DNA from: Clostridiales bacterium
Lineage (GTDB): Bacteria; Bacillota; Clostridia; Lachnospirales; Lachnospiraceae
Assembly: GCA_003343625.1 (NCBI GenBank)
Contig: QAKV01000028.1
Span: 106,044-170,043 of the forward strand
Direction of reading: 5' to 3'
Length of the DNA stretch: 64,000 nt
Notes under the pieces: generated by a model
What the model was told of the DNA's origin: nothing
Database searches by the model: none
Seen by the model: the letters and a program-made list of their open reading frames with translations, nothing else
Translations under genes and position numbers: made by a program
Shown: piece after piece, positions 27,156 to 28,508 of the stretch
Numbering within the stretch: the first letter of the stretch is position 1
How the letters are laid out: each line of letters starts with the position of its first letter

Positions 27156-28157
27156 ATGGAGGGAAAAATGGAAGAACGGATGGGAGCTGAAGGGTATGGC
27201 TGTGCGGGCAGGGCAGGACAGGAGCCGGGTACAGGGAATCTGCGGAAGGAGTTTTGGACAGGGGCTTTCCGGGAAGGGCGGCAGGCCGCCTTTTCGGAAC
27301 ATGTGATCCTGCCGGAGCTGATCGAGGAGTTCTGCCGGGAACTGGCGGCGGAGGAAAGAAGCCCGGCCACCATCGAAAAGTACCGCCGGGACGTGAAGGC
27401 CCTGCTGCGATTTCTGGGGGAGACGGGGGCGGTGTCCAAGGAAAGAATGGTTTCCTATAAGGAAGACCTCCTGAAGCGATACGCTGTGTCCAGCGTCAAC
27501 TCCATGCTGGCGGCGGCCAACTCCTTTCTGAAGAGCCGGGGTTGGTATGAGTGCACGGTGAAGTCTGTGCGGGTACAGCGGGAAGCCTTTCGTTGCCGGG
27601 AAAAGGAGCTGTCCAGAAAGGAATACTCCCGGCTGCTGGAAGCGGCGGGCAAGAAGAAGTCGAAGCGGCTGTATTTCGTGATGCAGGCGCTGTGCTCCAC
27701 GGGGATACGGGTGAGCGAGCTGCCCTTTATCACGGTGGAGGCGCTGAAGAAAAAGCGCGCCCGGGTGCACCTGAAGGGAAAGACCAGGTGGGTGCTGCTG
27801 CCCACGGAGCTGTGCGCGCAGCTGAAAGTCTATGCGGCGCGGTGTGGGATCCGGGAGGGGAGCATCTTTGTGACGGGAAGCGGGAAGACGCTGGATCGGA
27901 GCAACATCCTGCACGAGATGAAAGCGGTATGCGGGAAGGCGCAGGTGGAGAGGGGGAAGGTGTTCCCGCACAACCTGCGGCACCTGTTTGCCTGTACCTA
28001 CTACGACAGGGAGAAAGACCTGTCGCGGCTGGCGGACCTGCTGGGGCATTCCAGCGTGAACACGACGCGGATCTACACGCGGGTGAGCGGGGAGGAGCAG
28101 GCGAGGCAGATCGACGGGTTGGGTCTGGTGGAAGAAGGGCGCAAAAAAACCGCATAA
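27156..28157 (+). CDS. Tyrosine recombinase, predicted DNA invertase for the adjacent switch
   Basis: A 333-residue integrase-family protein. N-terminal SAM-like core-binding domain (about 50-135: EFCRELAAEERSPATIEKYRRDVKALLRF). The catalytic set is complete: Arg in STGIRVSEL, Lys in LKGKTRWV, HNLRH, LGHSS and the nucleophile Tyr in NTTRIYTRVS. Its stop codon lies inside the left inverted repeat of the switch. No phage or transposon genes are near, so it is best read as a dedicated invertase like those of other clostridial phase switches. ATGs at 27156 and 27168 are both possible; the region before residue 40 looks non-conserved. Confidence 0.92.
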   Translation: MEGKMEERMGAEGYGCAGRAGQEPGTGNLRKEFWTGAFREGRQAAFSEHVILPELIEEFCRELAAEERSPATIEKYRRDVKALLRFLGETGAVSKERMVSYKEDLLKRYAVSSVNSMLAAANSFLKSRGWYECTVKSVRVQREAFRCREKELSRKEYSRLLEAAGKKKSKRLYFVMQALCSTGIRVSELPFITVEALKKKRARVHLKGKTRWVLLPTELCAQLKVYAARCGIREGSIFVTGSGKTLDRSNILHEMKAVCGKAQVERGKVFPHNLRHLFACTYYDREKDLSRLADLLGHSSVNTTRIYTRVSGEEQARQIDGLGLVEEGRKKTA

Positions 28158-28172
28158 TGTTTGTTATGCGGT
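28143..28172 (-). terminator. OFF-state terminator formed by the left repeat
   Basis: On the minus strand the repeat folds as ACCGCATAA / TTATGCGGT with a CAAACA loop, and seven A (28143-28149) outside it give a T-run. It should end the leftward transcript. The right repeat lacks this T-run. Confidence 0.75.
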
Positions 28173-28173
28173 A
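28149..28173 (+). repeat. Left inverted repeat of the switch
   Basis: Arms ACCGCATAA and TTATGCGGT around a TGTTTG core, plus a trailing A. Each copy is itself a 9-bp palindrome, and the asymmetric core gives direction. It overlaps the recombinase 3' end without changing it on inversion. Confidence 0.95.
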
Positions 28174-28206
28174 AAGGAAACGTACATAATCTCCCAACTA
28201 AGGGAA

Positions 28207-28235
28207 ATTATAGCAAAGCAGCGGGGTAAAGTCAA
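28207..28235 (-). promoter_or_regulatory. Promoter inside the invertible segment (now pointing left)
   Basis: On the minus strand TTGACT (28235-28230), exactly 17 nt, TATAAT (28212-28207). This is one of the best promoters in the window. After inversion it would drive sipW with a leader of about 78 nt. Confidence 0.9.
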
Positions 28236-28322
28236 TCGCCAGCCGTGTAAAAATTTCCCAAAAATCCGAAAACAGCGGGAAAAAGAGGGAGCGATATCCG
28301 AAGGGAAGAAAAAGAGCGCATG

Positions 28323-28379
28323 ACGAGAAGACCGAAAGGGAGGAAATCCCGTCGGTCCTGTCGTCGTGGGCCCTTTTTT
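28323..28379 (+). terminator. Terminator-like hairpin within the switch
   Basis: A long imperfect stem, ACGA...AGACCGAAAGGGA with TCCCGTCGGTCCT...TCGT, followed after ten bases by six T. In this orientation it would stop transcription coming from the recombinase side. Confidence 0.55.
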
Positions 28380-28483
28380 GATTGTCCGGATTCGGTTTTC
28401 GGGTATGCTGTCCCCGAAACGGGGGAAGGGGAGCGCGCCGCAGGATACGGGGAGGCTTCCCGCCCCTGTCCGGGGTCGGGGGC

Positions 28484-28508
28484 TACCGCATAACAAACAT
28501 TATGCGGT
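28484..28508 (-). repeat. Right inverted repeat of the switch
   Basis: The exact reverse complement of 28149-28173, with core CAAACA. It lies 25 nt before the sipW start, and the bases after it (AAGCCGGG) contain no T-run, so ON transcripts can pass. Confidence 0.95.

Follow-up and report, generated by a model that had tools for sequence, protein, structure and literature searches.

The window, a stretch of 64,000 nucleotides, carries a recombinase gene, a short segment bounded by inverted repeats and an operon of predicted surface-fibre genes. The recombinase gene (27168..28157, plus strand; the mechanical open reading frame begins at 27108) encodes a tyrosine recombinase of 329 aa that matches Pfam PF00589 (Phage_integrase) and PF02899 (SAM-like domain), both over cut-off, and whose best solved-structure matches are XerA, an XerC-like protein and XerD. 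All catalytic residues of this neighbouring site-specific recombinase are intact (R181, K203/K205, H268, R271, H294 and Y303), and they were invariant or nearly so among 26 homologs.

To the right of the segment lies a plus-strand operon, the cargo, that begins with a SipW-type signal peptidase of 211 aa (28534..29169; TIGR02228, 104.7 bits against a cut-off of 51.85), which scores 115.3 with the SipW equivalog model NF046067, below its cut-off of 190. It is followed by a TasA/camelysin-like secreted protein (29202..29828; TIGR04088 above and PF12389 below cut-off) and by two TasA/BsaA-like secreted proteins (30013..30612 and 30750..31322), both above cut-off for PF12389 and TIGR04088 and below it for TIGR04090. 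Further along are a secreted-looking Cys-rich protein with repeats like CTCG.TDG.HAEDCPLYEEPE and no Pfam match (31335..32486; a related stretch is present in locus L171), a VWA-domain surface protein of 987 aa (32498..35461; PF00092, 34.7 bits, cut-off 23.8), a fourth TasA/BsaA-like protein (35477..36076) and a probable wall-anchored protein with an LPXTG-like tail (36097..36960; Gram_pos_anchor, 16.5 bits, below the cut-off of 20). Compared with SipW-TasA/BsaA matrix operons, the cargo contains the SipW-type peptidase (TIGR02228) and, in three of its four TasA-like proteins, the SipW-dependent signal peptide (TIGR04088 above cut-off). The BsaA-family model TIGR04090 gave 49.3 and 50.6 bits and, for the fourth protein, 36.4 bits against a cut-off of 60, and one of the four was unmatched; the proteins are therefore named TasA/BsaA-like only. 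A long hairpin with 22-nt arms that are 95% complementary lies between TasA-like genes 2 and 3 (30653-30705) and is possibly an internal terminator or processing site.

Two 25-nt inverted repeats (28149-28173 and 28484-28508) are 100% complementary, lie 310 nt apart and form the longest exact inverted pair in the 64-kb window among arms no more than 3 kb apart; the full stretch between their outer ends is 360 bp (28149-28508). A first-pass annotation had described such a pair of exact 25-bp repeats, about 310 bp apart, between a tyrosine recombinase on the left and a sipW/TasA-like operon on the right, and both the repeats and, from the domain matches, their setting were borne out. The repeats have the form of tyrosine-recombinase sites, ACCGCATAA-TGTTTG-TTATGCGGT, in which a 6-nt core is flanked on each side by 9 bp. 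The left site (28149..28172) and the right site (28485..28508), to neither of which a strand was assigned, share their arms, and the right core, CAAACA, is the reverse complement of the left. The 24-nt site pattern (up to 3 mismatches) occurs in these two places only within the window, where shuffling expects 0.01, and no copy of an ACATAA-type site was found within the 64 kb. On the left, the site overlaps the recombinase gene, whose stop codon TAA ends the first half-site. On the right, the sipW ATG follows the site after only 25 bp, leaving no room for a fixed promoter. An Rfam scan of 26900-37200 gave two matches, both under the gathering score.

The segment flanked by the inverted sites bears a promoter-like sequence on the minus strand (28207..28235; TTGACT-17-TATAAT) that matches 11 of 12 consensus positions, has a TG before the -10 and faces the recombinase, the OFF orientation. 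Its hexamers are also present in L001 and L002, and its -10 ends 46 nt from the centre of the left core. A second, weaker match lies on the plus strand (28161-28190; 9 of 12). When the segment was inverted in silico, the -10 ended 83 nt upstream of the sipW ATG; transcription starting about 7 nt past the -10 would thus give a leader of about 76 nt. The near-perfect, recombinase-facing promoter had been read correctly in the first-pass annotation, and its estimate of about 78 nt for the flipped promoter is close to this leader length. Taken together, 28149-28508 is very probably an invertible promoter switch for the sipW-TasA-like-VWA operon, likely flipped by the adjacent recombinase and here in the OFF state. 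This reading, already proposed with the sipW operon as its target, is supported by the anatomy of the locus and by the 179 distinct cassettes, this one among them, that share its layout.

These cassettes were collected with a profile built from 26 recombinase homologs, out of thousands of homologs scored. The profile search gave at least 80 loci (the best 80 matches) in Lachnospiraceae, Oscillospiraceae and other Clostridia, and the nearest named relatives of the window are Lachnospiraceae. In all, 264 recombinase places were assessed, the window included and some fetched twice: 127 in a first set, from which 15 loci had been dropped before counting (10 fetched for sipW, 1 duplicate and 4 replaced by longer stretches), and 137 in a second. 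Among the 127 places, 97 had an inverted pair of sites with exactly matched cores, 17 had a site only and 13 had none; 96 of the 137 had a matched pair. Removal of repeats (2 of the 97 and 12 of the 96, the latter repeating segments already counted) left 95 and 84 cassettes, which with the window included make up the 179. Missing site pairs are partly due to contig ends, since a contig ended within 310 nt after the recombinase in 17/127 places and started within 310 nt before it in 3/127 (not deduplicated), an asymmetry that also counts in favour of the switch. All places were found through recombinase similarity or beside sipW, and cassettes with other recombinases lie outside the sample.

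For a test of core matching free of circularity, 91 first-set pairs were picked by their arms only. The cores were exact reverse complements in 88 of the 91, with one mismatch in 1 pair and four mismatches in 2; shuffled partners gave 1.8 exact matches on average and a maximum of 8 (2000 shuffles), and a core match as a direct repeat occurred in only 1/91. The 91 pairs contained 68 distinct first cores. The window core (TGTTTG/CAAACA) differs from that of L002 (TGTCTG/CAGACA) by one base, altered on both sides, and the cores of L278 and L290 are different where the recombinases are 95% identical. The arms of the sites are thus fixed and the cores drift, with partner cores staying matched, as strand exchange within the core would require.

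The distance from core to core was found to follow the helical repeat of DNA. In the first set the best period in a scan of 5-16 bp was 10.45 bp (R 0.53, n=95), a degree of phasing that was reached by none of two smoothed nulls (4000 draws each). The second set, mostly gathered later and in part from the same genomes as the first, replicated this result with a best period of 10.35 bp (R at 10.45 bp of 0.525, n=84), as did the second-set cassettes without BLAST relation to the first (n=54, R 0.54). When the first-set period was applied to both sets together, the spacing lay within 2 bp of whole turns in 131/179 cassettes, against 68.5 expected; the flip thus seems to require both sites on the same helix face. 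The phasing was looser in longer segments (R 0.62, 0.60, 0.37 and 0.41 over four rising length bands). In the window the cores are 336 bp apart, or 32.15 turns, and other switches linked to sipW have 26.89 (L121), 25.93 (L070) and 23.83 turns (L173). In L172 the right-hand site is present twice in tandem, with one and the same core; the two copies lie 284 and 334 bp away from the left site, in each case close to a whole number of turns (27.18 and 31.96).

The confidently called promoters were also phased to their nearer site (R 0.63, n=58 in the first set; R 0.60, n=54 in the second), and 17 weaker promoter calls in range were unphased (R 0.10). Promoter-to-site phasing as the main effect was rejected by a control measured to the far site, which was phased too (R 0.54, n=61); it follows that the whole site-to-site distance is what is phased. 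The phasing of the promoter may derive from the same constraint. This second phasing, together with the fact that all cassettes are one family, bears on an alternative in which the helical spacing arises from shared descent or from a constraint on transcription, not from a need of recombination. Against it, phasing persisted in 67 cluster representatives of the first set (R 0.47), in 44 representatives of the unrelated second-set cassettes (R 0.52) and with one cassette per distinct core (n=113, R 0.43), and it was lost in the distances that flank the segment, from stop codon to site (R 0.04, n=143, after exclusion of 36 overlapping sites) and between site and cargo (R 0.11, n=87). We regard this alternative as unlikely, if still deserving of some weight. 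The data suggest that inversion needs both sites on the same face of the helix.

The partner of these sites would be the recombinase encoded beside them. A matched site pair lies directly after the recombinase gene in 193 of the 264 places (repeats included), and the stop codon of that gene falls within the left site in 36 of the 179 cassettes; the recombinase was itself the search query, a design by which sites lacking a recombinase neighbour would be missed. This close coupling argues against real inversion performed mainly in trans by another recombinase, with the adjacent gene incidental. Such an arrangement has a precedent in RecV, described as serving several switches in trans (PMC5903667), and several genomes contain many paralogous cassettes with similar arms, which is consistent with it. 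On balance we consider it improbable and retain the adjacent recombinase as the likely invertase.

Both orientations were seen among relatives. The recombinases of L247 and L244 are 85% identical and the loci have the same core, and a 215 nt segment (82% identical) lies in opposite orientation in the two, with promoters called OFF (margin 1.8) and ON (4.6), respectively. Similarly, L278 and L290 (recombinase 95%) share 191 nt at 81% in opposite orientation, and L296 and L290 (recombinase 88%) share 204 nt at 82% in opposite orientation; in both comparisons the calls are OFF versus ON with a margin of 1.6. Orientation in these inverted relatives was scored against the recombinase gene only, because the right-hand flanks are barely alike (beyond the right site, 66% over 239 nt for L247/L244 and 24-30 nt for the L290 pairs). 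Short opposite-strand matches were not counted as evidence of inversion, since hairpins within the segments can produce them. L036 and L042 match in opposite orientation, yet both are called OFF. An isolate contig, L026, is a perfect palindrome in which 8817/8817 flank bases are identical around one segment; most simply, it is a chimera assembled from reads in which the same flank joins either end of the segment. The inverted junction of the window segment had no match in viral_contigs.

By a simple promoter score, on which the ON and OFF calls rest, confident calls numbered 53 OFF and 8 ON in the first set and 44 OFF and 16 ON in the second (97 OFF and 24 ON in both). Most assemblies, the window included, therefore look OFF. 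An OFF window and a sister locus, L001, that looks decayed would be expected if this were a former switch, now locked OFF in the lineage, with sipW silent or expressed by rare read-through. Such a history is, in our estimate, slightly less credible again than inversion in trans, given that the window sites are identical, that the full-length recombinase retains its catalytic residues and that the reading frames of the operon are open. We infer that the window segment inverts in its own strain.

The segment also appears to be insulated. Both window sites fold as hairpins, and the left one, with a T-run outside the segment, scores as a minus-strand terminator (28142..28172; -11.4 kcal/mol); the right site has no T-run. 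Across the family, an A-run (at least 4) lay to the left of the left site, no more than 14 nt away, in 117/179 cassettes, compared with a T-run at the mirror position right of the right site in 30/179 (p 3e-21), and it was present in 60/86 cassettes where this position is non-coding. Read from right to left, the site palindrome and the T-run after it resemble an intrinsic terminator. Within the window segment, a two-way hairpin without assigned strand has both A-run and T-run edges (28310..28380; plus strand -38.8 kcal/mol, z -6.8; minus strand -35.5 kcal/mol, z -6.7), and its T-run and most of its stem are kept in L001 and L002. This hairpin is probably a bidirectional terminator that separates recombinase and cargo. 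Internal hairpins of the segments averaged -22.3 kcal/mol versus -16.5 kcal/mol after shuffling (three shuffles each), and in 51/93 segments the hairpin was more than 5 kcal/mol better than the mean of its own three shuffles. The central hairpin is not uniform: both edges were found in 20/93 segments only, which weakens the idea of a standard bidirectional terminator in every segment.

That the repeats are nothing but two back-to-back terminators in an ordinary intergenic region, with no inversion, is hardly credible: the hairpins at both sites and the terminator score of the left one are as such a reading predicts, yet back-to-back terminators need no shared sequence and the hairpin loops match in nearly every arm-picked pair despite their diversity, segments are inverted between relatives, the runs lie far more often beside the left site than the right, and site spacing tracks the helical repeat.

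For the invertible switch, the following course of events is proposed. The recombinase would bind the palindromic arms common to the family and exchange strands within the 6-nt core, with synapsis taking place inside one small DNA loop of about 250 bp. In so small a loop an excess of half a turn would cost torsional energy, which would account for core distances at whole helical turns. In the OFF state the promoter would fire leftward and transcription would run for no more than about 60 nt before ending at the terminator-like left site, sparing the recombinase gene from antisense transcription, and the central two-way hairpin would block read-through from the recombinase into sipW. Once inverted to ON, the promoter would drive transcription across the right site, which lacks a T-run, and into sipW about 76 nt further on. 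The expected outcome is a mixed population in which part of the cells make the predicted fibre layer.

Invertible promoters as a kind are well known, and several systems resemble the window in part. The fimS element of E. coli (PMC11316696) is described as a 314-bp promoter segment flipped by FimB/FimE and, like the window, has inverted repeats, adjoining tyrosine recombinase genes and a surface fibre cargo. It differs in its 9 bp repeats with non-identical flanking elements, its two recombinases and the help of IHF/Lrp, whereas the window has symmetric 24-nt sites, one recombinase gene, a stop codon within a site and a terminator-like run. The RecV switches of Clostridioides difficile (PMC5903667) likewise involve a tyrosine recombinase and short invertible segments in Clostridia; there, however, a single recombinase is reported to act on several switches, whereas here each cassette has its own gene and cores differ. 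The sipW-bsaA operon of Clostridium perfringens (PMC7395162) resembles the cargo in its SipW peptidase and BsaA fibre protein. Its expression is reported to be bimodal, ON or OFF, and to need a two-component system and PilA2, and the words 'inversion' and 'recombinase' are absent from the text of that article.

Clostridia invertons adjoining tyrosine recombinases were reported in 2025 from the gut community hCom2, as group 139 with invertase group 35 (PMC11892184). According to the main text of that report, group 139 comprises 33 invertons, 32 of them from Clostridia, with orientation shifts seen in reads, and it thus agrees with the window family in its Clostridia host and neighbouring tyrosine-type recombinase. 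Two repeat spacings printed there, 231 and 241 bp, equal 22.1 and 23.1 turns, both close to whole numbers, and fall within the size range of the present cassettes. Group 139 is probably the same family. The main text of PMC11892184 contains no match for signal peptidase, TasA or VWA. In the open-licence literature (titles and starts of abstracts), we found no SipW/TasA operon under DNA inversion and no helical spacing rule for invertons, and the earlier suggestion that no such link to a SipW-TasA-VWA operon has been described stands within that search. Against the same literature three features are apparently new: a SipW/TasA-like/VWA operon under the control of such a switch, insulation provided by the site itself and, above all, the helical rule of spacing.

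The association of the switch with sipW was found at more than one locus. At a threshold of E 1e-25, 26/397 genomes of the family had a sipW match, and 3 of the 30 loci listed from the sipW search had a cassette recombinase upstream (L142, L143 and L144, which rank second to fourth by sipW match among those listed). A script detected a repeat of at least 15 nt in L143 and L144, and the degenerate sites of L142 (longer stretch L172) were identified by eye. Together with L070 and the window, five sipW loci carry the switch; L172, L173 and L070 are the switch-bearing sipW operons other than that of L121. L121, the longer stretch of L143, has the same operon, from sipW through VWA to the anchored protein, with its own switch, a recombinase 52% identical to that of the window and the core TTCACA. 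The closest operon, in L171 (sipW 79%), has another kind of integrase upstream without a site pair, and no exact inverted pair of at least 15 nt was found there within 1.5 kb upstream of the sipW operon, which weighs against the main reading. Immediately upstream of that operon is a distinct integrase-like open reading frame of 387 aa (L171:13641-14804).

Four sipW-linked recombinases (window, L121, L144 and L070) lay on four separate branches of a recombinase tree of 90 of 173 rows, whose bootstrap had not settled, and a single clade of them was rejected (AU p 5e-72). The branching, in which a count of branches does not separate gains from losses, suggests that fibre operon and cassette were probably joined several times. 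Other first cargo genes, from a scan of 82/88 first-cargo open reading frames (crude caller; the longest six left out), encode surface repeat and SLH proteins, signal peptidases, GGDEF/EAL proteins, CpsB/CapC and regulators. We give about even weight to a broader reading in which these loci represent a portable, self-insulated flip cassette of Clostridia, repeatedly set before surface and signalling operons (in the window, a fibre operon), with a helical ruler that stems from a tight loop formed without a bending partner. Such a cassette would comprise one gene and about 340 bp and bring with it its own recombinase, a matched pair of sites, a promoter facing outward, an insulator acting in both directions and a terminator formed by the recombination site.

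If the switch operates as proposed, a predicted biofilm-fibre operon of a gut-type commensal would be a heritable coin-flip trait. The 179 cassettes also amount to a natural experiment in which DNA loop length is quantised at about 10.4 bp, in genomes and not in the tube. Should the phasing come from synapsis, sequence would reveal how stiff bacterial DNA is to torsion in vivo and what geometry a tyrosine-recombinase synapse has, and a 5-bp insertion should halt the switch. Cores that drift yet stay matched also suggest that orthogonal recombination sites are ready to hand as a set.

Several further observations were made in the window and its relatives. The closest cassette, L001:976-2860, matches that of the window at 80% along 265 nt; it has no sipW operon and, after its right site, seemingly a 5′-truncated copy of the window gene at 37061-37705. 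Its recombinase open reading frame is 302 aa versus 329, and its two cores differ at one base; by these signs the L001 switch may be decaying after loss of its cargo. The gene at 37061-37705 has a GRRFGRL...CDCG motif and no Pfam match, and relatives of it were found in 9/310 loci, including the cassette loci L001, L003, L004 and L008 (L091 is a repeat of L001). Exchangeable cargo may end at this gene. From one genome seven cassette-type recombinase places were fetched (L123-L129) and from another six (L130-L135). Five of the former (L124, L125, L126, L128 and L129) have a similar signal-peptidase-like first cargo and four different cores; L125 and L126 share the core TATGGA, which makes a large inversion between them conceivable. 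Finally, at window positions 5320-5550, three to four tandem units of about 68 nt with inverted GGAATGAGGGGCACGTTT motifs lie between genes.
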